Shown here in pieces: positions 2,964-24,758 of a DNA stretch of 29,507 bases (its first letter is position 1; each line of letters opens with the position of its first letter). The DNA is from a virus, in the IMG/VR virus record IMGVR_UViG_3300046004_000785, positions 1-29,507 of that record; one strand, written 5' to 3'. The notes under the pieces were generated by a model that worked only from the letters and a program-made list of their open reading frames with translations, did no database searches and was not told where the DNA came from. The position numbers were made by a program, and so were the translations under genes.

Positions 2964-3160
2964 CGGTTGAAGCTCTCGTACTGGTCAATGAACGAAGAGA
3001 CTTGAGCCTCTGTAGCCCTGCCGTTGCTGATCAACTTGTACGCCTTGCCGACCCACACCTTGTAGGTGACGGCAGACTGGTAGCTACCGGAGTTGATTCG
3101 CTCCGGTACTTTCTTCAGGCGCTCAGTGAGGATGGCCTTGAGCTTTACTGCATCGGTCAT
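2960..3160 (-). CDS. 66-residue hypothetical protein
   Basis: A small basic protein starting MTDAVKLKAILTERLKKVPE with a second segment TYKVWVGKAYKLISNGRATE and a C-terminal helix. It is likely all-helical. Start and stop both lie in ATGA overlaps, directly downstream of the Cas4-like nuclease, so it is almost certainly translated. No family recognised. Position next to the nuclease hints at a helper of recombination or replication, but nothing in the sequence proves it. Confidence 0.65.
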   Translation of the reverse strand: MTDAVKLKAILTERLKKVPERINSGSYQSAVTYKVWVGKAYKLISNGRATEAQVSSFIDQYESFNR

Positions 3161-4431
3161 GGCTTAGCCTCCGGGCGGAACAACTTGAACGATCCGCACT
3201 TCGCTGTCGCTTCCTTCTGGTTGATCTGGCAAAACCACTTCTTGCCTCCGGCGACTGGAAGAAGTGATGTGGCAAATTCGCAGTGGTGGCACTCCGTCAC
3301 CGCTACGTTCGGCTCCCAGCAGGAGGTGCGCTTGTGGCAAGTGCTGCACTTGTACTCATGCTTGTTCGAGCTGATGCGGGTTGTGACGCCAGCAATGGCG
3401 TCAGCGACGCGCTCAAGCAACTTGTTGGCAAGGTAGCTGTCGTACTCAATGATCTCCGCGTGGTACTGGCTGTTGTCCTTGCAGTACGCAATGAAGAAGC
3501 ACTTGCTCACCGGCACATTAAAGCTGCGAGCTAGGTGCATTCCGTCAACGCACTGGTCAACGTAGTGAGGGTGAGACAGGTGAACACCCTTCTTCTGGAA
3601 GCTCTCGAACATCTTGCGGTTCATGCTCTTGATCTCCAGAGCCATGCGCTCCCCTCCTCCGATCAGGGTGATGAACCCGTCAAGGTGAGCGGAGTGGTGG
3701 TCGCCGTGGCTGTTGTACTCCCACTGCTGGCCGGTGGCCGGGTCAAGCTCCTCGACTACGTGGCCAGCAGCGACCAGCGCCTCGACTACCTGAGTCTCGA
3801 TGCGGTGGCCATCACCGAAGATGCGGAGCAACTGCGGAGAAGGCATGTCACCGGGGAAGCCACGGAGAGACAGCGCGTGGTATGCCATGCACTCGACGCC
3901 AATGCTTGATGCACCGATGTAGCGGCGAGTGCGCTGGTTGCTTGCGATCTCCTTGGCTACTGTGCCGAGGTCGATGATGGCGACGGCTGCCGCGCAGACT
4001 TGACGGCCCGTTTGCGTGGCAGCATCGTCGGGTTGAGCAACCAGAGGCGCACGTCCTTTACTCGCAGCAGGATTACTTTTGGCCCGAGCTTGTGCTCCGG
4101 TGGAGTCTTGCCAGCCTGACGCAAGCGCCGGTAGGTCGTGTACGAGAGAGATGAACTCAATAGGAAATCCTTGAGTTGCATGAATACTGGCTCCACCGCT
4201 GGCGGTGTACCGGATGGTGATGCTTGCATGAGTAACTACCTTGCTGGTCTGGTGCTCGAACTTGAAGTCGAGCGTGATGTCGTCCACTGATGGGCCGCGC
4301 ACTACTTGAAGGCTGGTATTCAAGTCAAGCTCATCAGCCCGCTTGGATACCGCGATGGTGATTCTCTCGATGCCTGTGGGTTCGGCCGTAGCGGAGACCC
4401 CCAGCATCGAAGTGAACGATGATGGGGTCAT
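3157..4431 (-). CDS. PD-(D/E)XK nuclease, Cas4/RecB-like
   Basis: A 424-residue open frame. From about residue 162 it reads as a RecB/Cas4-type nuclease: RYIGASSIGVECMAYHAL (entry motif with Cys181), then the catalytic pattern HLDGF (Asp251) followed by MALEIKSMN (Glu266, Lys268), and a QCVDGMHLAR helix. The C-terminal end carries cysteine pairs (YKCSTCHKRTSC, CHHC, later two single Cys). Together with Cys181 these could hold an Fe-S cluster or zinc, as in Cas4 and AddB. In phages such nucleases process DNA ends for recombination with SSB and an annealing protein, which are the next two genes upstream. Residues 1-80 form a separate beta-rich domain. Residues about 84-158 are a low-complexity linker that another gene overlaps in the +1 frame, so the true N-terminus is less certain than the nuclease core. 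Confidence 0.75.
   Translation of the reverse strand: MTPSSFTSMLGVSATAEPTGIERITIAVSKRADELDLNTSLQVVRGPSVDDITLDFKFEHQTSKVVTHASITIRYTASGGASIHATQGFPIEFISLVHDLPALASGWQDSTGAQARAKSNPAASKGRAPLVAQPDDAATQTGRQVCAAAVAIIDLGTVAKEIASNQRTRRYIGASSIGVECMAYHALSLRGFPGDMPSPQLLRIFGDGHRIETQVVEALVAAGHVVEELDPATGQQWEYNSHGDHHSAHLDGFITLIGGGERMALEIKSMNRKMFESFQKKGVHLSHPHYVDQCVDGMHLARSFNVPVSKCFFIAYCKDNSQYHAEIIEYDSYLANKLLERVADAIAGVTTRISSNKHEYKCSTCHKRTSCWEPNVAVTECHHCEFATSLLPVAGGKKWFCQINQKEATAKCGSFKLFRPEAKP
3957..4181 (-). CDS. AlpA/excisionase-like HTH protein overprinted in the nuclease gene
   Basis: A 74-residue protein in the +1 frame relative to the nuclease that contains it. ATG 4181 has GGTGGAG nine bases upstream. 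It reads MQLKDFLLSSSLSYTTY, then RRLRQAGKTPPE, then HKLGPKVILLRVKDVRLWLL. This is the order seen in AlpA/excisionase HTH proteins: a helix, 'S..T.YRL...G..P', 'LGP..V..R..DV..WL'. Codon use in this frame (CTC, AAG, TAC, CTG, GTG) looks like the neighbours, while the nuclease frame over the same bases is an Ala/Ser/Gln/Pro-rich linker. Likely role: a small DNA-binding regulator or excision factor. A shadow frame is possible, but the match to the HTH pattern is long. Confidence 0.55.
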   Translation of the reverse strand: MQLKDFLLSSSLSYTTYRRLRQAGKTPPEHKLGPKVILLRVKDVRLWLLNPTMLPRKRAVKSARQPSPSSTSAQ

Positions 4432-6757: not shown

Positions 6758-8752
6758 ATGACAGCAGATGAACCGGGCTTCGAGGAATACACCAGCGTGG
6801 CGTGGACAGCAGCGATGCGCTACCTTGGTATGGGGTGGTCGATCATTCCACTGCGCTTCAGTGACAAGATGCCAGCTATAGAGTGGAAGCAATACCAAGA
6901 GCGCCAACCTACTGAGGACGAGGTGACAGGCTGGTTTGAGAATGGCGTACCCAATGGCAATGGAGGACTGACCAAGGTTTTCGGATTGGCCATCATTACA
7001 GGGAAGCTGAGTGGCCTAGTAGTATGTGACTGTGACAATCAGGATGCAATTTCATACGCAATTACGGAAGCGGGCCTATTCAGTATGCTGAACGTCAGCA
7101 CTACCCGTGGCCAGCACCTCTACTTCAAGCACCCCGGTGGCAGCGAGAAGGTGCAGAACAAGGTAGGTGGTCAGGGCCGCGACTGGCCTGATGTGCATGG
7201 CCTTGATCTGCGCGGAGATGGCGGCTATGTAGTAGCACCACCCAGCCTGAAGTTCAAGAGCATTGAGGATGGCGGAGGGTTCCAGCACCAGTACAAATTC
7301 AACTGCCCAGACGATGAGATTGAAAACTTCGCGCTCGGCCTTCCTGTGTGGCCGGGTATCAAGGCGAAGCCAGTGCAGCAGCAGGTAGGGGAGTGGAGCT
7401 TCGACAACCTCTCGCTGTCGGCGGTCAAGTCCTACGGTGCTGACGTGTGGGCACAGATGGGTGATCGTGTTGCCGTGCTCAAGCGCAAGCTGCGCGATGG
7501 TGATGGCCGCAACGCTTGGCTGGTGCGGTACATCGGAGAGTGCATTGCCTCTGGCATGGAGGAGCAGCAAGCCCGTGTTGCGAGTGAGCAATTCCAGATC
7601 GAATTCTTTGAGCCGCCACTGCCCACCGTTGAGTCGGATACTGTGCTGCAGTCGGTGCTCGGCACAGACAAGCGCAACCACCCAGAGAAGTACGCAGCCA
7701 AGGAGAAGTACGATGGCAAGAACGAAGTACGCAAGGGCCGCGCAGATGCCATCCGCCTGATTGTTCCGAGCAACTTGGGCGCACTCCGCAACATGGCGCA
7801 GGGCAAGAAGTACCTGATTGATCCGTTCGTTCCGCCGCAGTCGATCATCCAAGTGGTCGGCTTCAATGGCCATGGCAAGTCCTACTTCCTGCTCAATATG
7901 TTGTGGGCCGCAGCCCGTGGCCACAGCTATGGCTCCGCTCATGTGGACGCCAAGGTTAGGGCGTTGTACCTAGACTTTGAGGGCAGCTCCAGTACAATCT
8001 CGTCTCGCATTGAGGACTGCACATCAATCCATGGAGAGATGGATGAAGGCTTCGCAATCTGGAACGCCAACGTAGCAGATGACCCGATGTGTCTGAATGA
8101 GGCGGATGGTATCGAGCGCCTTGGCAAGTTGATCAGTGACACATCACCACAGCTCGTGGTCATCGACACTGTTCGTCAAGCTTGGCTCGGCATGGATGAG
8201 AACTCTCCGCACTCTTGGGTGAAGGTCAACGCAATCGCAATGGCTTGCCGTAACTCCGGCATGTCAGTGATCATTGTTCACCACCGCAACAAGCCGACGA
8301 TGCAGGGCCACGGCCGTGAGGCTGGAAGCACCGCTCAGTTGAAAGACTTGGATGTGCAGATCATCGTGACGAAGGTGGTTCTTGATCTGGATCAAGCCAA
8401 GAGAGAGGCAGCAATGCCAGACTCCGCGACCTCAATCGCAGACTTCTCCGGTAGCACATGCACAGCATGGACATACCTGCGTAGAGCGTTGCCCACCGGC
8501 AGCATCCTTCGCATCGTGTTCGAGATTTCATTCGGCAAGCTGCGGCAAGCCACGGAGAACCATGTCACGACATACGTTGGCATGGCGCAGGACAACGCCA
8601 CTGGCAAGTGGACAACGGTTAGCAGTCTCACCCCTCTGCAAAAAGCAATGGCTCTACATGGTCATGGACGATCTGCGTGTGAGATAAGTGATTTGATAGG
8701 TGTAAGCCAGCCCACCGTTAATGGCTGGTTGTCAGGGATAGGGAGTAAATAA
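6758..8752 (+). CDS. Bifunctional primase-helicase: Prim-Pol domain plus AAA/RepA-like ATPase
   Basis: A 664-residue protein. The N-terminal domain is a bifunctional DNA primase/polymerase: GWSIIPLRFSDKMPAIEWK (26-44), the metal-binding VVCDCDNQD (Asp91, Asp93), STTRGQHLYFKHP (His120) and LDLRGDGGYVVAPPS. The central domain is a RecA/RepA-type helicase: Walker A GFNGHGKS at about residue 368, ALYLDFEGSSS, Walker B LVVIDT at about 467, and the sensor-like VIIVHHRNK. The last 40 residues look like an HTH (CEISDLIGVSQPTVNGWL) that could bind an origin. It would prime and unwind DNA for phage replication. ATG 6758 has AAGGA six bases upstream. First plus-strand gene of the divergent early region. 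Confidence 0.9.
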   Translation: MTADEPGFEEYTSVAWTAAMRYLGMGWSIIPLRFSDKMPAIEWKQYQERQPTEDEVTGWFENGVPNGNGGLTKVFGLAIITGKLSGLVVCDCDNQDAISYAITEAGLFSMLNVSTTRGQHLYFKHPGGSEKVQNKVGGQGRDWPDVHGLDLRGDGGYVVAPPSLKFKSIEDGGGFQHQYKFNCPDDEIENFALGLPVWPGIKAKPVQQQVGEWSFDNLSLSAVKSYGADVWAQMGDRVAVLKRKLRDGDGRNAWLVRYIGECIASGMEEQQARVASEQFQIEFFEPPLPTVESDTVLQSVLGTDKRNHPEKYAAKEKYDGKNEVRKGRADAIRLIVPSNLGALRNMAQGKKYLIDPFVPPQSIIQVVGFNGHGKSYFLLNMLWAAARGHSYGSAHVDAKVRALYLDFEGSSSTISSRIEDCTSIHGEMDEGFAIWNANVADDPMCLNEADGIERLGKLISDTSPQLVVIDTVRQAWLGMDENSPHSWVKVNAIAMACRNSGMSVIIVHHRNKPTMQGHGREAGSTAQLKDLDVQIIVTKVVLDLDQAKREAAMPDSATSIADFSGSTCTAWTYLRRALPTGSILRIVFEISFGKLRQATENHVTTYVGMAQDNATGKWTTVSSLTPLQKAMALHGHGRSACEISDLIGVSQPTVNGWLSGIGSK

Positions 8753-8977: not shown

Positions 8978-9457
8978 ATGGATGAAGTGAAGCCGTGGTG
9001 TACTTACCGTACCTCGCACCCCTCGGGTCACTTCTACCAAGGCAAGGGGCGCACAGCCCTTGTTGCCACGGGGAAGTACCAAGGGTCTGGTGTTCGCTTC
9101 AACCTGTCCATGGTGTGGGCAGGGTACGAGTCTCACACATGGGCAACCGTTGTGCTTGAGACGTTCGACACAGAGGACGAGGCTTATGCTGCAGAGGAGT
9201 TGTTGGTGACGCACGAGTCACTGGCCAATCCCTTCTGCATGAACATGATGCAGGGCGGGAGACGCGGTAAGTTCCGCACCCCATCTACCCTACTTCGTCG
9301 CTATCGCATGGCAGCGAAGAAGGAGCGAGCCGCCGCAGCCCGCGAGAAGAAGAAAGCGAAGGACGCACTGGCTAGGTCAGTGGCCTCCGCGAAGTTGAAG
9401 GCGGCTAAGGCTGGTCGCGTTAGTCGCACACTCAAGCGATCTACACCTTGCCCATGA
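8978..9457 (+). CDS. GIY-YIG-like endonuclease
   Basis: A 159-residue protein, one base after the previous stop. The first 100 residues follow the GIY-YIG fold: WCTYRTSHPSGHFYQGKG (in place of GIY...YIG), GKYQGSGVRF, WATVVLETFDTEDEAYAAEE with the likely catalytic Glu in the AAEELL helix, and NPFCMNMMQGG. The remaining 60 residues are Lys/Ala-rich (KKERAAAAREKKKAKDALA), a probable DNA-contacting coiled tail. Such proteins in phages are homing or repair nucleases. The 3' end overlaps the convergent integrase gene by 17 bases. The motif substitutions make activity less certain than family. Confidence 0.7.
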   Translation: MDEVKPWCTYRTSHPSGHFYQGKGRTALVATGKYQGSGVRFNLSMVWAGYESHTWATVVLETFDTEDEAYAAEELLVTHESLANPFCMNMMQGGRRGKFRTPSTLLRRYRMAAKKERAAAAREKKKAKDALARSVASAKLKAAKAGRVSRTLKRSTPCP

Positions 9458-10259
9458 TGCCCGTCAGCTTGGTCTTCACCAACCCTCGATAGCGCATCGA
9501 CATCGCCGCACTTGAGTGGCCTAGCGCAGTCACCAAGTCGGGGATGTCAGCCCCATTCTCAGCAAGCACAGCAGCGAACGCATGGCGAAGGTCATGCACT
9601 CGTAGCCTCGGCAATCCCAAGGCCGCTGTGGCCCCGTCCAGCACCCTTCCCAGACACGTTGGTACAGACCCCGCCTCTATCCCCGGAGGCGTGATGCTGC
9701 CGTTGCTAAAGATCGCACTTGTTGCAACCATCGCCAGCAAGCGAGGGGTGTACGGGATGACACGATCTATCGTCTTGCTGCGCCGGTCAACACGCTTGGC
9801 TATGCGTGTGCCGTGCCGCGTGAAGCTCTCGTGTGTCAGCGTCAGCGCCTCTCCTAGCCTTGCTCCTGTGTGCGCTAGGATCACGGTGAGTGCGTACCAA
9901 GGGCGGCTCGTCCACTTGATGTAGTCAAGCAGCAGGTTCAGCTCGGTGCCGGAGATGTCCACGTACACGGTGTCGTTCACGTAGGGTACGTCGATCACCG
10001 GAGATCGGGCAATGAGTCCGTCCTTGTAAGCTCGGCTCATCACAGCCCGGAGCTGAACAAGGTAGCGCTTGATGGTTCCCGGAGCCAGCCCAGCCCACGC
10101 CAAGTTGGCGACCATCACCAGTGATTCGCCCGTGGATGCTGCGGCCATAGTCCCGAACACGCGGCGGATGTGGCCCACCTTGTCCGTCAGGGATGCCGCC
10201 ATTGGTGCGTGAAGGGTTTTCACCCTGACGTAGTGGTCGATCAATGTGCTGATTGTCAT
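9441..10259 (-). CDS. int: Tyrosine site-specific recombinase (integrase)
   Basis: A 272-residue protein from ATG 10259, which overlaps the TGA of the regulator upstream (ATGA); a longer frame to 10340 lacks a ribosome site. The N-terminal SAM-like DNA-binding domain includes PGTIKRYLVQLRAVMSRAY. The catalytic residues are Arg134 (HTGARLGEA), a Lys-rich beta hairpin (AKRVDRRSKT), His222 and Arg225 (VHDLRHAFA), His248 (LGHSS) and the nucleophile Tyr257 (SMRYRG). All are in place, so the enzyme should be active. It would insert the phage into the host chromosome and makes the phage temperate by inference. The attachment site was not identified. Confidence 0.92.
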   Translation of the reverse strand: MTISTLIDHYVRVKTLHAPMAASLTDKVGHIRRVFGTMAAASTGESLVMVANLAWAGLAPGTIKRYLVQLRAVMSRAYKDGLIARSPVIDVPYVNDTVYVDISGTELNLLLDYIKWTSRPWYALTVILAHTGARLGEALTLTHESFTRHGTRIAKRVDRRSKTIDRVIPYTPRLLAMVATSAIFSNGSITPPGIEAGSVPTCLGRVLDGATAALGLPRLRVHDLRHAFAAVLAENGADIPDLVTALGHSSAAMSMRYRGLVKTKLTGIMGKV

Positions 10260-10705
10260 GTCGATTCCTTTTTGAATTGGTTGTTCGTTGGCTTGGTGGT
10301 TCGCAGCACTTCCATGAGTGCAGGTTTCTGGTCGAGCCACCAGCGTTTGCCGATGTGGTAGCGCTTCTCGTACTCCGTGTCAGGTATAGAGCTGAGAAGG
10401 TTCTTGTGCGACACCAGCATCACACTCCTGCTTGGTATGTCGAGGGCGTTGAGTGCTGCCTTGAGGTGTAGCTTGATCGTCGTGTCGTTGCACTCCATGA
10501 TCTTGGCCAGCTCTTGGTAGCCCACCCCACCCAACGATGCGGTCAGTACAGCGTGGCGCTTGACGGTCAGGTGGTCGAGCTTCTCGCGGAGCACGGCCTC
10601 CTCGCTGCTCTGCGCTACCTTGGCGGACTGTGGTGCGATTGCGTTCTCGATGTTGATTAGCTTAGCCAGAATTAGGTTCAGGCTTTCCTGCATTTTTGCG
10701 GTCAT
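10256..10705 (-). CDS. LuxR/GerE-type HTH regulator
   Basis: A 149-residue protein. Residues 1-45 are helical with a coiled-coil look. Residues about 46-98 are a LuxR_C-like HTH: LTVKRHAVLTASLGGVGYQE, LAKIMECNDTTIKLHLKAAL, NALDIPSRSVMLV, with the usual 'L..R...VL', 'i...l..s..TiK.hl' and 'L...sR' spacing. The C-terminal part is basic and Trp-containing (KRWWLDQKP). Strong ribosome site AAGGAG six bases before ATG. It is coupled to the integrase, so it may control integration or excision; regulation of a lysogeny switch is inference. No receiver or autoinducer domain is present. Confidence 0.7.
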   Translation of the reverse strand: MTAKMQESLNLILAKLINIENAIAPQSAKVAQSSEEAVLREKLDHLTVKRHAVLTASLGGVGYQELAKIMECNDTTIKLHLKAALNALDIPSRSVMLVSHKNLLSSIPDTEYEKRYHIGKRWWLDQKPALMEVLRTTKPTNNQFKKEST

Positions 10706-11327: not shown

Positions 11328-11542
11328 GGTGAACTCCTAAGTAAGTCGATGATGTATGTCATGCCTGATGTGTCCCACTTCTGAACTTTTGAGTCCTTAC
11401 GCATGGACTCGACTGCGTTCCAGAAGCGCACCCCTTTGCAGGGGGCGAGTGCTCTCCACCACGAAGGTATCTGCATCACCTTCGCCCTCCGCCACTGACG
11501 GAGGTACTTGGCGCTAAGCTGCTCGCTTGAAACCTGCCGCAT
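11324..11542 (-). CDS. 72-residue hypothetical protein
   Basis: Starts inside the end of the CobT-like gene (29-base overlap) with a near-perfect ribosome site, AAAGGAGG, before ATG 11542. The protein is basic and Trp-rich (SAKYLRQWRRAKVMQIPSWW, KGVRFWNAVESMRK) and ends in a hydrophobic TYIIDLLRSSP. The overlap and strong ribosome site make it a real gene. No family recognised; small size and charge fit a nucleic-acid or protein-binding accessory factor. Confidence 0.65.
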   Translation of the reverse strand: MRQVSSEQLSAKYLRQWRRAKVMQIPSWWRALAPCKGVRFWNAVESMRKDSKVQKWDTSGMTYIIDLLRSSP

Positions 11543-13751
11543 GGCCAGCCTCCTTTGCGATGAGCTTGGCCAGCTTGCGGATCACTGGCTCGTAAGCATC
11601 CGCACCGCTAACCTCCACGTTGTCAGGGAACAGGTGGCTCACTTGCATACCGCTGATTCCGACGCCGATCATGTGGACACCAACCGCCTTGGCCAGTGAG
11701 TGCGCCTCCTCCATGATGTCCTTCGGACTCTGCTTCTCCAGTGGTCGATCAGCCTGACCATCTGTGATGTGCAGGTAAATCTTCTTGGCATGGTTCTCTC
11801 GTGCCATGTCAGTCAGGTCAGCGAACACAGCGCAGTAGCTTGGAGTGCCGGACTCAAGCGCCTCAACGCCGATGCCGAACGCCTCACGCACCCTTGGGTT
11901 CGAAGTGCGCTCACGCTTGTACTTGATGACGCCACGGGTGAGCAGCCCGACGTCAACGTACTCCGCAGGCAGCTTGGCTGCAGCCCTGCGCTGAACATCT
12001 GCGGCTAGCACCTTGACTGCGGCAAAGTAGTCATCGCTTGTGTACGTCTGCCCCTTCCCTTGGTATACGAAGTTGCCCCACATCTCCACTTGGATGTCGC
12101 AGCCGGTACGCTCAAGCGCCTCGCTCAGTGCATACGCCAGCTTCAATGCCTCCTGTGCATTCACACCATCCATCGAACCGCTGCCGTCGATGCTGATGTA
12201 GAGCAGAGTGTCCATGTCCTTGCCGTCTGTCCGCTTCTGGTACACAGACTCTCGCCCCTGCATTGCTTGCACCAAGCGCACCGATTGCAGGCGGCCAGAC
12301 TTGTGACCCGACTCCCAATGCCTGTCACTCCGAGCCTGCAGCTCAAGCTCAAGGATGCGACGGATCATTGCCTTCTTGCCAGACAACTCAGCATCAATGC
12401 TCGCCATGAACTGCACTCCTCTCCGTTGGATGCGGCTGTATGAACCACTGTGGGCCGCCATCACTGCATCCTGCATGGATACCTTCAGCGACAGGCGCTT
12501 CGTCCATGACTTATACATGCCCTTCTTCTTGACGACGCGACCTCTCTTCATCTCAGGCTTGGTGTTACTGATGTCGGACACCACATCATTGAGTGCCTTG
12601 GCATACATGTCAGCGTCATCAATGCCGCTCACGTCCGGGGTCTCAGTCTTCTGCTGAGGCACCGTACCCATGCCATTGCCGGAGCCTTTGGCGGAGCCGC
12701 CACGGCTGGTCTCCATGCCTTGGGATTCCTCGCCGTCATTGCCAGCGGACTCATCCTTGCCGCCACCGCCTTGTCCTTGTCCTTGTCCTTGCGCTCCGCC
12801 CTGATCTCCTGCCTCCTCTCCACCCTCTCCGCTACCCTTCCCGTCGCCTTCTCCTTCGCCAGCTCCAGCTCCTTCGCCCTCTCCGTCACCGCTGCCTGAG
12901 TCACCCGGCTGGCCATCGTCACCCTTCTCACCTTCGCCGTCACCACCCTCACCCTCGCCGGGCTTACCTCCGGGCTGCGGTGGCTGCTGGGGTTGAGGCT
13001 GCGGTGGTTGCTCGGGTGGTGGAGGTGGAGGAGTCATCTCCGAGTAGTCCGAGTACGCCTTGAAGATTTCGTCAGCCAACTCGAACGACTTGACCGTACC
13101 CTTCTTAGCCTCAACGTCATCGAGGTGGTTGCCGCTGTACCCCGTTGGCAGGGCCACCATCTGCTTCGCACACCGATCAGCCAGCGCATGGAGGCCGGGG
13201 TCTGCCGCCTTCATGTGCTCGTTCAGCACCTCGAACACGCCGCCAGACTCAACACCCACTGCAGCACGGGCGATGGACTGCAGCATGATGCGGAACTGCA
13301 AAGGCTTTGGCAGTGCAGCCACCACATCCTCTGGCTTGCCTCGGCTCTCAAGCTGGGTGAGTAGCATCTTCGCAGCATGGGAGTTGGTTGCTGTCAGCCC
13401 GTGTGCCATGCCGGGGTACTCAAGTATCCCTGCCTGCTCGATGCGAACGTCCTCGCAGTATTGCAGGATGGTGGAGTGATGACTGTTGCCAGCATCATTG
13501 ATCGCCTTGAGCCGTGCCATACCAGCGGGGCTGGTGTCGGTGCAGCGGACGTGCATGGATTCATGGTCACGGAAACCACGGATGATGTCCTGCTGGTCAA
13601 CCGTGATGTCCGCTGCTGGCGGCAGGGCTGGCAGGTAGATGGTGGTGCCATCCGTGTGGGCTTCCGCCCCCTCGAATACTACGCGGACATCCTTGCGTCC
13701 GAACACCTTGGATGATGACTCGATTGAGTCGCTGAATACGCCTGATTTCAT
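11514..13751 (-). CDS. CobT-like VWA protein with N-terminal HExxH motif
   Basis: A 745-residue protein. Residues 63-67 read HESMH, a zinc-protease type HExxH, followed by ILQYCEDVRIEQAG (Glu100/Asp101), the usual third-ligand region of VWA-linked metallopeptidases. Residues about 240-365 are a Pro-rich then Gly/Glu-rich acidic low-complexity linker. The C-terminal third is a von Willebrand A domain with the metal-site motif DGSGSM at about residue 522 and IYLHITDGQADRP later. This arrangement is close to CobT, the VWA partner of the AAA+ ATPase CobS in cobaltochelatase, and the CobS-like gene is two genes upstream. No CobN catalytic subunit is visible, so a chelatase role is doubtful; a MoxR/VWA-type remodelling pair is an alternative. 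Confidence 0.8.
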   Translation of the reverse strand: MKSGVFSDSIESSSKVFGRKDVRVVFEGAEAHTDGTTIYLPALPPAADITVDQQDIIRGFRDHESMHVRCTDTSPAGMARLKAINDAGNSHHSTILQYCEDVRIEQAGILEYPGMAHGLTATNSHAAKMLLTQLESRGKPEDVVAALPKPLQFRIMLQSIARAAVGVESGGVFEVLNEHMKAADPGLHALADRCAKQMVALPTGYSGNHLDDVEAKKGTVKSFELADEIFKAYSDYSEMTPPPPPPEQPPQPQPQQPPQPGGKPGEGEGGDGEGEKGDDGQPGDSGSGDGEGEGAGAGEGEGDGKGSGEGGEEAGDQGGAQGQGQGQGGGGKDESAGNDGEESQGMETSRGGSAKGSGNGMGTVPQQKTETPDVSGIDDADMYAKALNDVVSDISNTKPEMKRGRVVKKKGMYKSWTKRLSLKVSMQDAVMAAHSGSYSRIQRRGVQFMASIDAELSGKKAMIRRILELELQARSDRHWESGHKSGRLQSVRLVQAMQGRESVYQKRTDGKDMDTLLYISIDGSGSMDGVNAQEALKLAYALSEALERTGCDIQVEMWGNFVYQGKGQTYTSDDYFAAVKVLAADVQRRAAAKLPAEYVDVGLLTRGVIKYKRERTSNPRVREAFGIGVEALESGTPSYCAVFADLTDMARENHAKKIYLHITDGQADRPLEKQSPKDIMEEAHSLAKAVGVHMIGVGISGMQVSHLFPDNVEVSGADAYEPVIRKLAKLIAKEAGHAAGFKRAA

Positions 13752-13930
13752 GGTGAACTCCTTTGTTGGTTACGTTTCAATTGGCTGACGACTGCTTGCA
13801 TGATTGCAATTGCCTCAACCCTTCGCTGAACTGAGCCCGCATACGCTGGGCCGAAGTCGATCTGCGTGTCAGCGACCAACTCCTCCAGCGTTTCGAGCAC
13901 GAACTCCGCTTGCTTCAGCGGGTTGCTCAC
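13748..13930 (-). CDS. 60-residue hypothetical protein between the CobT-like and CobS-like genes
   Basis: Joined to both neighbours by ATGA overlaps (start in the CobS-like TGA, stop in the CobT-like ATG). The protein is mostly helical: NPLKQAEFVLETLEELVADT, YAGSVQRRVEAIAIMQAVVS, and a basic tail LKRNQQRSS. The tight coupling implies equal expression with the AAA+/VWA pair, and it may be a small adaptor of that complex (inference). No family recognised. Confidence 0.7.
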   Translation of the reverse strand: MSNPLKQAEFVLETLEELVADTQIDFGPAYAGSVQRRVEAIAIMQAVVSQLKRNQQRSSP

Positions 13931-15876
13931 GCCAGTTCCTTGTTGGTGTCGATGCCACCCAAGGAGTTGTTGGCGATCTCGGTCAGACGCTGACGGAACT
14001 CCTCACCCGCTGCGTCGTACAGCTTGGACTTGAATGCACAAGACAGGATGCGCTTCTCGTCCTTGAACCCCATCTCCATCAGGTCAATGACCTCACGGGC
14101 AAAGGCCATGCTTCGACGTGGGCTGTAGCTGATGGGCGTCTGGCCAGTGACGAATGCTTGGCGCATCTCAGTGCCGAACTTCGCCAGACGCTGCACCATC
14201 TCCTTCGCCATGGTGGGTACGATGCTGGTGATGAGCCCGATCTCTTCGTCGAGGCTCATGTACGGCACGTTGATGAAGGTGCTGAAGCGATCCAACGTAG
14301 CGGCGGAGAGGATTCGGCACGCTGGGTACAGGCCAGACGGGTCTCCGTTGCCAGCCGTGTTACCGGTGGCACAGATACGCATCATCGGAGAGCGACCAAC
14401 CACCCGGCCGCCGTCTTCAAGCAGGGTCAGCGGCTTGCCTTCGAGCAATGGTTGCAGGGTGTAGAGCGCATTGGGGTGGCCAGCGTCGATCTCGTCGCAG
14501 AGCAGGATGTATCCGTTGACGGATGCACGCTCGATGATTCCCTCCAGCCAGTTGGAGTTGGTTCCACCGTTGCCATCACCCTGCAGGTTCATGCGTCCAA
14601 CCAACTCCGACCTGTCCACGTTGCTATCGAAGGCTACTCGTGCAACTGGCCAGCCGAGACGAGAGGCGATCTGCTCAATGAACGTGGTCTTGCCGCTACC
14701 CGTGTGTCCTGTCAACCACTGGTTCTCGTTACGTGCAAGGCAGCGGAGAGACTTGATCAGCATCGACTTGCGGAAGATGTACTCGTCGTTGATGGCTGGC
14801 ACGTCAGCGTGGTGTGCATTCCATGTGAAGGACGGCACCATCAGGTTCACACCCTTGAGCTGCGGGAACAGGGTGCTCGCCTGAACCATGGTCATCTGGC
14901 CAGAGGGGATGGACGACGATGCTGCAACGATGGCAATGGTGGATGGCATGGCGGCCTGACCGCTGAGCTTGGAGCGGAGATCGTTGATCACCTTGTTGGC
15001 GGCCAACTCAGCGTCAACCGCTGCGCTCTTGAGGCTGATGTTCTCCGCAATGCTTGCCATGATGTGGTCGATGGTGAGTCCGAGGCCGGACTGCGCCAGC
15101 ACGCCGTCGATGATTGGCTTGAGTGCTGGGTTGATTGGGGTGACGTTGATTGTGGATGTAGTCATAGCGGAAACTCCTTGTGTTGTTGATGTGGAAACGG
15201 AAGCGGGAACGGTTGGTGTTGTGGTTGCGATAGAGAGCGGGCCTTGGTAGCCATTGGGGAACGGCTTGTTCGCAGCCCAAGCACAGGCATCGACGATGGT
15301 GGTGCAGCCAACCGATGAACCCATCATCTGAGCCAGCTCTTCAATCCGCTCAGCCAATGCGTGTCCTGCCATCTCCTTGTACTCAATGGACTCGAACCCG
15401 AAGTCATCTCCGAAGCTGCCCCAGCCTCCGTTCTCCGCATTCGACAGCAGCATCCACTCAACCACCGGCCCATAGGACAGCGTTGCCGCGAGTGCCACCA
15501 TGTTGTTGAGGCTGATGTTCGCCAGTATGTAGCTGTACGTCAGCTTGCCTTTGTACTTGGCGAGCGCCGGGATGTTCAGCCCATCTATCACTCTCGCTGC
15601 TGCGTCCGCATCATCATGGTGATCCAACCTTGACCGGATCAATGCGGCCACCGCCTGCTTGGTGTCTGAGATGGACACACCTGCCTCAAGAATGCAGTAG
15701 AGCTGCGACAGCGAGCCGATGGTCGGCTGCGCTGCGAGCCCGATAGCGCGGACAGCGTACTCGTTGAGGCTCTTGCAGCCACCGAAGACGCAAGTGTCTG
15801 TGAGGTTGCCCAATGGGTAGTCGATGGCAGCGTTCGTAACGTAGTCTGCTGCGGATTGCTTGAGTAATTTGGCCAT
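13927..15876 (-). CDS. CobS/MoxR-like AAA+ ATPase with extra N-terminal domain
   Basis: A 649-residue open frame. The C-terminal 260 residues are a CobS-type AAA+ ATPase: Walker A GHTGSGKT (390-397), DRSELVGRMNLQG, Walker B ILLCDEIDAGHP, sensor MRICATGNTAGNGDPSG, and an arginine-containing LSAATLDRFSTF. CobS ATPases power VWA partners, and the CobT-like protein is two genes downstream. The first 237 residues are a distinct domain of unknown type followed by a Thr/Ser-rich linker. At residue 238 a Met is preceded by AAGGAG, the same leader found before most genes of this operon, so a shorter 412-residue ATPase is probably also made, or is the main product. ATG 15876 has AGGAG upstream. Confidence 0.85.
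   Translation of the reverse strand: MAKLLKQSAADYVTNAAIDYPLGNLTDTCVFGGCKSLNEYAVRAIGLAAQPTIGSLSQLYCILEAGVSISDTKQAVAALIRSRLDHHDDADAAARVIDGLNIPALAKYKGKLTYSYILANISLNNMVALAATLSYGPVVEWMLLSNAENGGWGSFGDDFGFESIEYKEMAGHALAERIEELAQMMGSSVGCTTIVDACAWAANKPFPNGYQGPLSIATTTPTVPASVSTSTTQGVSAMTTSTINVTPINPALKPIIDGVLAQSGLGLTIDHIMASIAENISLKSAAVDAELAANKVINDLRSKLSGQAAMPSTIAIVAASSSIPSGQMTMVQASTLFPQLKGVNLMVPSFTWNAHHADVPAINDEYIFRKSMLIKSLRCLARNENQWLTGHTGSGKTTFIEQIASRLGWPVARVAFDSNVDRSELVGRMNLQGDGNGGTNSNWLEGIIERASVNGYILLCDEIDAGHPNALYTLQPLLEGKPLTLLEDGGRVVGRSPMMRICATGNTAGNGDPSGLYPACRILSAATLDRFSTFINVPYMSLDEEIGLITSIVPTMAKEMVQRLAKFGTEMRQAFVTGQTPISYSPRRSMAFAREVIDLMEMGFKDEKRILSCAFKSKLYDAAGEEFRQRLTEIANNSLGGIDTNKELA
15165..15179 (-). 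promoter_or_regulatory. Internal ribosome site and start within the CobS-like gene
   Basis: AAGGAG (15179-15174) stands eight bases before an in-frame ATG (15165), in the Thr/Ser-rich linker ahead of the ATPase domain. The surrounding bases (AAGGAGTTTCCGCTATG) resemble the leaders of the genes at 13751, 15876, 16289, 19773 and 20393. It suggests two proteins from one frame, or an in-frame fusion of two former genes. Confidence 0.55.
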
Positions 15877-21437: not shown

Positions 21438-22024
21438 GGAAGCCTCTCACAGACACCCAGAGACTAAACCTGTCGAAGGGCGTTGGGAGAGGCGGCAAGA
21501 GTCCGAGAGACCTGTGGATAGAACAAGGCATGACGGCTGCTGAAGCGGATGCCAGAGAGCTTGAGCGCATAGCTCTACAGCAAGCGGTACGCTCCCGTAC
21601 CATGGCCATTAGAGCTGAGAAGAAAGCGCTGTCACTTGGTCTCGGAGATGCTGTTGTCGTAGCCACAACCATTGAGGAAGTGAAGCGAGACATCACCAGA
21701 GAGTTCAAGCAGAGCCCGCTCAAGGGTATGCAGCGCCAGACAACAGTGGTTCGTCGTCAGCAGAAGCGGATGGCTGACACGGAGCTGCGTGAGCAACGCT
21801 CCCTCGACCCTCGCGTCAAAGGGTTAAAGGGTGTGACTGGCGTTGAGGTAGACGAGGACGGAACCATTGGCCTGAAAGCTCTGAGAGAGCAGCGGCCTGA
21901 CATCTTCGCCATGACGCCAATCCCTGTAGAGGGTCGTGAAGACGGCGCATCCAAGCGAATCAACCAAGCAAGACTGGCCAATGGCCGAGAGGATAAGTTC
22001 TATGACAAGCGTAAGCCCCGTTGA
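21434..22024 (+). CDS. Hypothetical protein in the packaging operon
   Basis: A 196-residue very basic, helical protein. It starts at GTG 21434, overlapping the TGA of the previous gene (GTGA). Segments of note: GMTAAEADARELERIALQQA, VKRDITREFKQSPLKGMQRQ, VRRQQKRMADTELREQRS and a C-terminal NQARLANGREDKFYDKRKPR. It overlaps the start of the large terminase by 23 bases. Possibly a packaging accessory or scaffold-like factor; no family recognised. Confidence 0.65.
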   Translation: MRKPLTDTQRLNLSKGVGRGGKSPRDLWIEQGMTAAEADARELERIALQQAVRSRTMAIRAEKKALSLGLGDAVVVATTIEEVKRDITREFKQSPLKGMQRQTTVVRRQQKRMADTELREQRSLDPRVKGLKGVTGVEVDEDGTIGLKALREQRPDIFAMTPIPVEGREDGASKRINQARLANGREDKFYDKRKPR

Positions 22025-24758
22025 TCAGAAGGAAGCAGCTCTATACCTGCTGCGTCTGCGGCAGAGTGCCAACAGCTTCCCCGGCTTCATGAGCTACTAC
22101 TACGACATGAGCTGGGAGGCGTTCCACATCGAGATGCAGGAGGTTCTTGATCTGCTGGAGAAGGACGCCCTCCTCTCTCGCGGTGGCAATCCGATCAGGA
22201 ATCTGCTGCTGACGATGCCTCCACGCCATGCCAAGAGCTTCAATGCGACGGTGAACTTTCCGGCCTATGCACTGATGCGGAAGCCGTACAGAGAGATCAT
22301 GATCAGCTCCTACAACGCTGAGCTGGCGGCTACGTTTGGCCGTGGCACTCGGGACATCGTGACGGATCAGAAGGCTCGCAAGGCGTTCAAGGGCTTCGAG
22401 ACCAGCAGAGAGACACGAGCGGTTGACTTCTGGAAGACGACGGCTGGCGGGGCGTACTACTCGGTTGGCCTGAACGGCACGACCACCGGCCGTGGAGCAA
22501 ACTGCTTGGCTGGCGATACTGAGTTGCTTGTCATGACTGGACGAGGAGCAACTTATACAACTACAATGACCTCTCTGTTCTACGACAAAGAGGCCACCCA
22601 TGTACTCTCCTACGACCACGCTACTAAGTCACCCGCTTGGGCAAGGATCAACTCCCACTCAAGAACTCCGGCGAGCGAATTATTTGAGATCAGCGATTCC
22701 TCTGGAGGAGTTGTTGAAGCTACTGGAGAGCATCCCTTCTACGTCGCAGGACGCGGGTACGTCGAGGCGAAAGACGTTGCCCCCGGCGATATTCTCTTGC
22801 GCCTGTTGCCAGAAGACCTCGATAAAGCAGGCGTTCGACGTTCTGAAGTCGATCAAGCGCGGGCACAAAGACCTGTACTGCTCTCTGAAGTGCAGTCAGA
22901 CGCACCATGCCACGAAGAACACACCTCTGTGCCGGGTGTGCGGAGAGCCAGCGAAGATGAACAGCTCAAGGAGGTATTGCAGTCCGGCTTGCTTGGATCA
23001 AGCGAGGGAGCTGAGGCTTGTGACTCACGTTCACCAGTGCAAGCAGTGCCTGTCGGAGTTCGAGTCCAAGAGCAGCAAAACTCAGTTCTGTTCCATGAGT
23101 TGCAAGAATATGCAACATTCGCAATCAATGACGATGGCGGGGAATCCGAGGTTCACGCACGGGCACTTCGGGGAGAAGCGTCAACCACACACGATCAAGG
23201 CGTTCACGAAAGCGCGTCCGAAGATCAGGGAGAGGGACGGGATGAAGTGCGTATCGTGCGGTTCCGTAGGGAGTCTGCACGTTCACCACATCGACCACAA
23301 CCCGTACAACTGCGTTTGGAGCAATCTGGTGACTCTGTGTGCGTCGTGCCATCACAAGCACCATGCCCACGAGAGGAAGACAGGCAAATCACTGTTTCCA
23401 TGGTTAGGCGAGTACGCAAAGAATGCTTCGTCTACAACATCTCCGTAGAGGGCAACGAGAACTACTTTGCCAACGGTGTTCTCACTCACAACTGCTTGGA
23501 GGTTGATGACCCGTACAAGTCTCGGGAAGAGGCTGACAGCGCGACACAGCGCCGTAAGGTCTGGGACTTCTATACCTCTGGCCTGCTCAGCCGGATGCAG
23601 CCGGACAGGGATGGACAGCCAGCGTTCCAGATCGTTACGCAGACCCGCTGGCACCCCGATGACATGGCTGGACGGATACAGGAGAGCGCGGAGTTCAAGC
23701 GCGGAGAGTGGCTCCACCTCAACTACCAAGCTCTGACGAAGAAGGAGCGGAAGGTCTATGTCCGCAGGAACTCGCTGCCAGAAGATGACCCTCGCTACGT
23801 GCCAAACGTGACGGTTGAGCAGATCGAGACCGGCCGACGCACCGACCATGAGGCTGGCGGCTTGCTGTCTGAAGGTCTGGTGACGCCAATGGTAGAGGTG
23901 TCGGATGAGTACACCGCCCTCTGGCCAAGCCGCTTCCCTGTCGAGTTCCTTCAAGGCCAACGCAGCGTGCTTGGCGAGCGGGATTTCCAGTCTCTGTACC
24001 AGCAGAGTCCCTATGTACTCGGTGGCAACATCGTCAAGGAGAACTGGTTTAAGCGGTACAACGCGGACACCAAGCCGCTGGAGTTCCATGCCATAGCCAT
24101 TGGCGTTGATACAGCATTCAAGGCCAAGGCGGTCAACGACTACTCCGTATTCACCGTCGCTGGCATCACAGAGATTGGCGACATCTACATCCTCAACGTC
24201 TTCAGAGACAAGCTGGAGTTCCCTGACCTGAAGCGCAAGGCCATAGCGATCAACTCAGCGTACCGTGGCCAAGGGCTACGAGGCTTCTGGATCGAGGACA
24301 ACGCTTCCGGCCAGTCGCTTATCCAAGAGCTGAGGGCCAACAGCGGAGTGCCAGTGATCCCGTGGAAGCCGGGAGCGAACGACAAGGTGCTGCGTATGAC
24401 GAGCATCACGCCGTTGATCGAGAGTGGCCGGGTGTTCATACCCGAGGAGGCGCATTGGCTTGAGGACTGGCTGGGAGAGCTGGTTCAGTTCCCGTCCGTC
24501 AAGCACGACGATCAGGCCGACAGCTTTGTGATCGTGGTGGACGTTCTGAGCAGGATGGTAGTGACTGGCCTCAAGGAGTTCACAGCACCGATTGGAGAGT
24601 TGATGGGCAAGACAGGCTTCAAGGACTTGCTGTTTGCTGGTCAGGAGATGAAATCAGACCCGAATGGATGGGGTGGTAGCGGCGGGAGCTTTGGCGCTGC
24701 TGTAGGCGGCTCTGGTGGACTTGGTGGATTCGGAGCTTGGAAGGGCTGGGGTCAGTAA
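22002..24758 (+). CDS. terL: Terminase large subunit interrupted by an intein
   Basis: A 918-residue precursor from ATG 22002 (GAGGA nine bases upstream). N-extein residues 1-167 carry the ATPase Walker A-like PPRHAKS (73-79) and end GTTTGRGAN. The 330-residue intein follows. The C-extein begins CLEVDDPYKS, the Walker B of terminases, so the intein sits directly before the catalytic acidic pair. The C-terminal half has the RNase H-like nuclease: AIGVDTAFKAKAVNDYSVFT (Asp), FWIEDNASGQSLIQEL and VKHDDQADSFVIVV (Asp). After splicing, a 588-residue motor-nuclease would remain, normal for the family. The tail is Gly-rich. The enzyme cuts and pumps phage DNA into proheads through the portal encoded downstream. 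Confidence 0.92.
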   Translation: MTSVSPVDQKEAALYLLRLRQSANSFPGFMSYYYDMSWEAFHIEMQEVLDLLEKDALLSRGGNPIRNLLLTMPPRHAKSFNATVNFPAYALMRKPYREIMISSYNAELAATFGRGTRDIVTDQKARKAFKGFETSRETRAVDFWKTTAGGAYYSVGLNGTTTGRGANCLAGDTELLVMTGRGATYTTTMTSLFYDKEATHVLSYDHATKSPAWARINSHSRTPASELFEISDSSGGVVEATGEHPFYVAGRGYVEAKDVAPGDILLRLLPEDLDKAGVRRSEVDQARAQRPVLLSEVQSDAPCHEEHTSVPGVRRASEDEQLKEVLQSGLLGSSEGAEACDSRSPVQAVPVGVRVQEQQNSVLFHELQEYATFAINDDGGESEVHARALRGEASTTHDQGVHESASEDQGEGRDEVRIVRFRRESARSPHRPQPVQLRLEQSGDSVCVVPSQAPCPREEDRQITVSMVRRVRKECFVYNISVEGNENYFANGVLTHNCLEVDDPYKSREEADSATQRRKVWDFYTSGLLSRMQPDRDGQPAFQIVTQTRWHPDDMAGRIQESAEFKRGEWLHLNYQALTKKERKVYVRRNSLPEDDPRYVPNVTVEQIETGRRTDHEAGGLLSEGLVTPMVEVSDEYTALWPSRFPVEFLQGQRSVLGERDFQSLYQQSPYVLGGNIVKENWFKRYNADTKPLEFHAIAIGVDTAFKAKAVNDYSVFTVAGITEIGDIYILNVFRDKLEFPDLKRKAIAINSAYRGQGLRGFWIEDNASGQSLIQELRANSGVPVIPWKPGANDKVLRMTSITPLIESGRVFIPEEAHWLEDWLGELVQFPSVKHDDQADSFVIVVDVLSRMVVTGLKEFTAPIGELMGKTGFKDLLFAGQEMKSDPNGWGGSGGSFGAAVGGSGGLGGFGAWKGWGQ
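22503..23492 (+). mobile_element. Intein in the large terminase (Hint domain)
   Basis: Block A: CLAGDTELLV with Cys1 at 22503. Block B: EATGEHPFYV with the TxxH His. The Hint N-part ends near EAKDVAPGDILL (about 22801). Block F/G: CFVYNISVEGNENYF and NGVLTHN, ending in His-Asn, with Cys as the +1 extein residue (codon 23493). All residues needed for Cys-type splicing are present. Both splice junctions have the same ten bases, AACTGCTTGG. The roughly 200 codons between the two Hint halves read as a low-complexity, charged linker in this frame because the endonuclease is encoded in another frame. Confidence 0.9.
22600..23448 (+). CDS. HNH homing endonuclease nested out of frame inside the intein
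   Basis: This frame is +1 relative to terminase and intein. From about 22789 it is clearly protein-like: a row of zinc-finger pairs (FSCACCQKTS ... LYCSLKCSQTHH, PLCRVCGEPAKM ... RYCSPACLDQ, HQCKQCLSEF ... QFCSMSCKN), then the HNH core IRERDGMKCVSCGSVGSLHV, HHIDHNPYNCVWSNLVTLCA and SCHHKHHAHE. It ends at its own TAG (23446-23448) within the intein C-terminal block. Codon use is normal in this frame. Possible starts: ATG 22600, with AAAGAGG six bases upstream (282 residues), or TTG 22777, with GAGG nine bases upstream (223 residues). It would cut intein-free terminase genes and so spread the element. Intein endonucleases are normally fused in frame, so this nesting is unusual. Confidence 0.85.
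   Translation: MYSPTTTLLSHPLGQGSTPTQELRRANYLRSAIPLEELLKLLESIPSTSQDAGTSRRKTLPPAIFSCACCQKTSIKQAFDVLKSIKRGHKDLYCSLKCSQTHHATKNTPLCRVCGEPAKMNSSRRYCSPACLDQARELRLVTHVHQCKQCLSEFESKSSKTQFCSMSCKNMQHSQSMTMAGNPRFTHGHFGEKRQPHTIKAFTKARPKIRERDGMKCVSCGSVGSLHVHHIDHNPYNCVWSNLVTLCASCHHKHHAHERKTGKSLFPWLGEYAKNASSTTSP

Follow-up and report, generated by a model that had tools for sequence, protein, structure and literature searches.

Homing inteins are classically built with the endonuclease fused in frame, and the endonucleases that inteins carry are often degenerate. A second architecture, the split or "fractured" intein, in which a freestanding endonuclease gene lies between the two halves, was reportedly described by Dassa et al. 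in 2009. HNH genes also adjoin phage terminase genes, where they can be required for packaging.

Recent work on phage DNA methylase genes has added a further arrangement. The ShiLan domain and the Pacc40 insert, described in 2025, are out-of-frame HNH elements for which neither an intein nor an intron was found, and the insert is thought to remain in the protein (PMC11855218). For the large terminase (TerL), one account places the mycobacteriophage TerL1-e inteins at the Walker B site (PMC5050341). A 2015 comparison of brucellaphages mentions in passing that all of them have, inside the gene for the large terminase, a putative intein-encoded HNH gene in a different frame (PMC4422536). Full-text searches of the open-access literature turned up no general account of inteins whose endonuclease is overprinted.

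An intein and an HNH gene on the same bases

The window analyzed here is a virus contig of 29,507 nt (29.5 kb; IMGVR_UViG_3300046004_000785). Its TerL gene is one unbroken frame, with 0 stop codons across an intein at 22503-23492, and the same bases hold an HNH gene in the +1 frame. The features of the locus are as follows.

22002..24758, + strand: TerL gene holding the intein (TIGR01630, 1.3e-23; PHROG 38, 2.9e-90)
22503..23492, + strand: complete intein of 330 aa, Cys1 to Asn330, then Cys+1, just before the TerL Walker B motif
22503..22832, + strand: N-terminal Hint half with blocks A and B, TGEHPF (AlphaFold pLDDT 85-97, residues 1-100)
22587..22602, + strand: candidate HNH start ATG 22600 with an upstream AGAGG Shine-Dalgarno-like sequence (dG -5.8)
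22600..23448, + strand: overprinted HNH endonuclease gene, 282 aa, +1 frame (PHROG 1271, 7e-25)
22600..22776, + strand: stretch coded twice, for the Hint N domain and an HNH N-terminal extension (host third-position changes reduced)
22833..23363, + strand: host-frame linker, stop-free and predicted disordered (pLDDT <50 in residues 111-187 and 198-287)
23364..23492, + strand: C-terminal Hint half, block F VYNISV and block G VLTHN/C (pLDDT 85-96, residues 291-331; TIGR01443)
23446..23448, + strand: HNH stop codon TAG within the block F codons for Val-Glu (block F reads VYNISVEGN)

TerL probably starts at ATG 22002 rather than at GTG 21936, the start of the listed ORF, judging from the sequence and from comparison with a close relative, L013. 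In the TerL frame, the Pfam model Intein_splicing matches 22503-23492 (9.5e-13), as do the NCBI end models TIGR01445 (intein_Nterm) and TIGR01443 (intein_Cterm, 3.3e-07), so the boundaries and the stop-free frame given in a preliminary description of this DNA are correct. Block A with the nucleophile Cys1 (CLAGDT at 22503), the block B TxxH (TGEH), and blocks F and G (VYNISV...VLTHN/C, Asn and then Cys) are all present. Among 15 aligned inteins, all of which match PF14890, T74 and H77 of block B are invariant, and Cys1 also occurs in the related loci (class 1, below) whose N end was read. AlphaFold runs, which used family alignments with one row from the phage record collection left out, model Hint residues 1-110 and about 291-331 at pLDDT 70-97 and the ~180 residues between them mostly below 50. 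The preliminary description had read this middle portion as low complexity, in line with its predicted lack of order. Foldseek searches of the PDB with the host-frame model returned RadA, NrdJ-1, and other inteins, with E values down to 4.3e-07. By these predictions the TerL insert has the Hint fold of inteins, and its motifs suggest that it splices out of TerL. An RNA intron was considered and rejected, as an Rfam match was absent within the window.

Most of the HNH protein comes from the linker bases read in the +1 frame, which is open over 22570-23448 and contains CxxC zinc-finger pairs and an HNH core (VHHIDHN...NL..LC..CH). PHROG HNH families match this frame in all 26 aligned members, among which H170, H171, N183, C158, C161, C188, C191, and H192 are invariant. 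Profile searches, which the preliminary description had called for, thus assign the host frame to Hint and intein models and the +1 frame to HNH families. The part of the HNH protein encoded from 22777 is modeled at a mean pLDDT of 89.8; a PDB fold search with this model gave weak HNH matches only, none of them significant (best E, 0.097). As had been described, the zinc-finger HNH frame closes at its own stop inside the C-terminal Hint block, and the HNH genes of three related loci (L002, L005, and L013) likewise terminate inside block F.

Elsewhere in the window, two large neighboring genes on the - strand (11514-13751 and 13927-15876) resemble cobaltochelatase CobT and a phage "porphyrin biosynthesis" ATPase family. 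PHROG matches include a Cas4-like exonuclease (3157-4431, - strand), a primase/polymerase-like protein (6758-8752, + strand), and an integrase (9441-10340, - strand). The phage may be temperate.

Recurrence and avoidance of host-frame stops

Searches of annotated phage genomes by tblastn with both products hit one and the same gene, TerL, in Gordonia phage Clown and likewise in Synechococcus phage S-EIVl. In each, the HNH is offset +1 from Hint, and the whole is annotated as a single terminase gene. The HNH alignment, used to scan viral contigs, matched 80 loci. In more than half of these, the frame one position before the HNH (HNH-1) is unbroken for ~440 to 1250 residues, the shortest being cut by contig ends, and has 0 stops across the HNH. 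Nearly all of these loci carry Hint block F in the form searched, and their third frame always contains stops. The preliminary description had named linker frames full of stops in homologues as evidence against its reading; loci flanked by a fused Hint have none, while freestanding HNH homologues have 2 to 41 in the HNH-1 frame.

With near copies removed and two loci (L210 and L103) added, there are ~41 distinct loci in the same phase, here called class 1. Two of them are isolated phages, nearly all sit immediately ahead of the Walker B motif of TerL, and many are merely 23-40% identical to the window. The search for the same arrangement in related terminase inteins, also suggested beforehand, was therefore successful. 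L103, from a contig of a planctomycete MAG, is the single nested case from the genome-contig scan. Loci picked solely by a downstream Hint C-terminal motif show the same division into nested and freestanding genes with two exceptions. In L073, the HNH is in frame with Hint. L054 (1-2390) is a split TerL intein in the order TerL-IntN, homologous HNH gene, IntC-TerL; adjacent reading frames overlap at both joints, the IntN stop with the HNH start (697-700) and the HNH end with the IntC ORF. It is possibly a relative or an intermediate of the overprinted form. A tree of nested and freestanding HNH proteins groups most Walker B-site elements, with low support. Given its recurrence across dozens of divergent phages, the double-coded element is a real, largely overlooked class of mobile element.

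Some loci depart from the common layout. The host ORFs of L024 (2131-5787) and L059 (1711-5469) are ~1220-1250 aa, exceeding those of other intein-bearing TerL genes. In L007 and L008, an HNH ORF directly follows TerL and is itself followed by an apparent second copy of the TerL C-terminal tail, which suggests insertion near the end of TerL with duplication.

How the host frame stays open can be read from codon usage. When the HNH protein was kept and its synonymous codons were shuffled, the host frame acquired a mean of 7.2 stops versus 0 observed, and 0 of 2,000 shuffles were stop-free, so an open frame by chance was rejected. In the class-1 phase, a host-frame stop arises only where an HNH codon has T in its third position and the next codon starts with AA, AG, or GA. 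Since NNT to NNC is always synonymous, avoiding such stops is free for the HNH protein. Across 38 nested HNH genes, T occurs at 0 of 740 NNY codons before AA, AG, or GA versus 1,665 of 2,920 (57%) at other NNY codons, a comparison that is partly circular because nested status was assigned by the open host frame, although flanking Hint motifs chosen independently yield the same nested/freestanding split. Freestanding homologues show no such avoidance (475/701 in the same contexts versus 981/1,428 elsewhere). This contrast and the absence of intermediate loci are what is informative beyond the 0/740 count.

A different HNH family occurs in the opposite phase. The contig of L006, shared with L183, carries it in a TerL intein at another site (...DEYSHG/C...SN/S), and a scan with this HNH found ~14 distinct loci whose HNH+1 frame is unbroken (class 2), at least 9 of which have Hint motifs. 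Host-frame stops in class 2 come from, for example, ATG followed by A, and silent removal is impossible. The 12 class-2 proteins have 14 methionines in total, with 0 before K, N, T, I, or M, versus 71 of 195 in 35 class-1 proteins. Substitution-phase switches are seen in L183/L184 and L191/L193, the latter pair having few changes. Since phase, site, and HNH subfamily are unrelated between the two classes, the nested arrangement appears to have arisen at least twice. One class-2 nested HNH intein (L204:619-3126) lies in a gene that resembles a portal protein by eye, and the arrangement may thus extend beyond terminase. In L194 (753-1232), the class-2 HNH has one stop in its own frame and the host frame is open; this is possibly a decaying endonuclease.

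Mobility, expression, and selection

We consider it highly probable that the locus is a composite mobile element in which an intein splices out of TerL and a separately translated, overprinted HNH protein drives homing. Read in the TerL frame, the intein would splice itself out and so leave the essential packaging motor working. One base over, the TerL mRNA would yield, by internal initiation, a freestanding multi-zinc-finger HNH homing endonuclease. This enzyme would cleave TerL genes that have no intein, at their Walker B codons, and the whole element would be copied in during repair. The linker would be an incidental host-frame reading of the HNH gene, selected chiefly for having no stop.

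Empty sites among close relatives bear on this proposal. Four TerL relatives (L208, L211, L212, and L213) are 61-79% identical to the window and intein-less, reading GTTTGRGAN/xLxVDDPYKS at the site, while L013/L209 and L210 carry the insert. The insertion is exact and replaces the +1 residue alone, with Cys in the window. We infer that exact insertion together with empty sites is the trace left by homing, and the sporadic presence of the element among close relatives is consistent with homing through putative cleavage of the empty site.

The same observations weigh on the most durable of the alternatives, that splicing does occur but the HNH protein serves the terminase as a cofactor in packaging, like the terminase-associated HNH of HK97-type phages, and not as a homing endonuclease. 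In its favor, nearly all class-1 loci are in TerL, and an HNH beside the terminase can be needed for packaging, as argued for brucellaphages (PMC4422536). Nevertheless, relatives as close as those with empty sites do without the insert at the same site, the insertion is precise, with Cys+1 replacing the residue normally found there, and related HNH genes stand free elsewhere, one of them between split-intein halves (L054). We therefore regard a packaging cofactor as unlikely.

How the HNH protein is made is a second point of divergence. ATG 22600 is kept in all three closest relatives (including L013 and L210), and the HNH-frame sequence downstream of it is conserved while that upstream is not. 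The protein is therefore likely translated separately by internal initiation, with ATG 22600 the probable start. The preliminary description had offered two starts, ATG 22600 and TTG 22777, where HNH homology begins. The former is the better candidate: the three closest relatives all have the ATG, and TTG, which is TTA in L013, was rejected. Good Shine-Dalgarno sequences precede GTG in S-EIVl (AGGAG) and in L006 (GGAGGTGA). Shine-Dalgarno matches, which had been cited in favor of both starts, lend no support across the family: strength at HNH-frame start codons is 16% versus a 9% background, which is not significant (p=0.10). The best score per locus is -7 or below in 17 of 36 loci versus 0 and 4 in the other frames, but this striking difference arises because the HNH frame has more start codons there, and it is not used as evidence. 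Start positions differ among HNH families.

A +1 ribosomal frameshift within the intein, also put forward in the preliminary description, would instead produce a TerL-N/Hint-N/HNH fusion in place of a separate protein. Such a fusion would account for the weak Shine-Dalgarno signals, and the HNH frame is indeed open ahead of the candidate starts, from 22570 on. However, the host frame has no stop there to serve as the classical +1 stimulus, the three closest relatives all keep ATG 22600 but not the sequence just upstream, and class 2 has its HNH genes in the opposite phase. Frameshifting is thus unsupported and appears slightly less probable still than a packaging cofactor.

Substitution patterns identify the frame under selection. 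Between the window and L013, the HNH proteins are 72% identical, against 50% for the host-frame residues encoded beneath them. In the exteins, the most rapidly changing codon position is the host third (0.42 and 0.47 per site); within 22777-23350 it is the HNH third (0.42-0.50), and past the HNH stop it is once more the host third (0.47). The same switch from host to HNH and back to host occurs in nine pairs from several subfamilies. The codon-position test that had been proposed thus reveals the change of frame directly at the ends of the HNH gene, and the HNH frame is under purifying selection. Host third positions are also depressed near the HNH start in the nine-pair comparison. Between the window and L013, 13 of 59 changed over 22600-22776 versus 263 of 581 in the exteins (p=0.0005), with a similar drop in two other pairs; therefore, some of the Hint N domain lies in doubly coding sequence. 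Most of the linker appears, from these patterns, to be constrained solely via the HNH, its own sequence being barely constrained beyond the absence of stops. The earlier suggestion of selection for both products consequently holds for the HNH and the Hint ends but hardly for the linker.

These data leave little room for the HNH frame being a relic, that is, a once-fused endonuclease knocked out of frame with its expression lost. Degenerate endonucleases are indeed common in inteins, but decay would preserve neither frame nor motifs in ~41 divergent loci, and here HNH third positions are fastest in nine pairs and the catalytic and zinc residues are invariant, making this very improbable. Finally, two indels from sequencing or assembly error, which could explain the window taken alone and which the preliminary description had named as a way to overturn its reading, can be dismissed, as the same phase offset occurs in the isolates Clown and S-EIVl and in ~40 contigs, and host-frame stops are avoided at 740 of 740 chances.

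Relation to known systems

In this element, a splicing unit and its putative mobility gene are written into one stretch of DNA, each in its own frame, in an essential gene and across dozens of divergent phages. We propose that an overprinted endonuclease within an intact intein is probably a widespread, recurrently evolved build of homing intein in phages, with one HNH family always in the phase where stop avoidance is free and another in the costly phase, paid for with methionine loss. It would be largely unrecognized because gene callers report the TerL frame only. Since overprinted endonucleases escape routine annotation, counts of "mini-inteins" without an endonuclease are likely too high. 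The locus is also an unusually clean natural system of overlapping genes, in which the selected frame can be read from substitutions and switches at gene ends, and it suggests how a gene can come to lie within another with hardly any coding penalty. How homing inteins originated, in their freestanding, split, overprinted, and fused forms, becomes testable within one gene family.

The mycobacteriophage TerL1-e inteins share the TerL location of the window intein; an out-of-frame HNH goes unmentioned in the accessible part of their description (PMC5050341). The preliminary description had held that known inteins carry the endonuclease in frame, yet the arrangement is not wholly unrecorded, as brucellaphage TerL is one earlier sighting (PMC4422536). 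That case concerns one phage group, is likened to the window by its description only, and comes in the accessible text with no analysis of splice motifs or selection (PMC4422536).

The ShiLan-type elements are alike in hiding a zinc-finger HNH in another frame of a stop-free insert and in a sporadic distribution suggestive of homing (PMC11855218). They differ in having no self-splicing domain, whereas the window HNH is flanked by a full Hint domain, and because of this the window insert would be able to splice out of an essential protein.

Canonical HNH inteins have Hint and HNH too, with the HNH at the usual insertion point between the Hint N and C parts. In these, the endonuclease forms one domain of the intein chain, in frame with Hint; in the window and about 40 further loci the HNH lies +1 to Hint and would be a separate protein. 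Fractured inteins resemble the window in placing a separate endonuclease gene between the Hint N and C parts, and L054 is such a case in TerL. They differ in that the window keeps both Hint halves on one chain, with the endonuclease gene overprinted on the bases between them.
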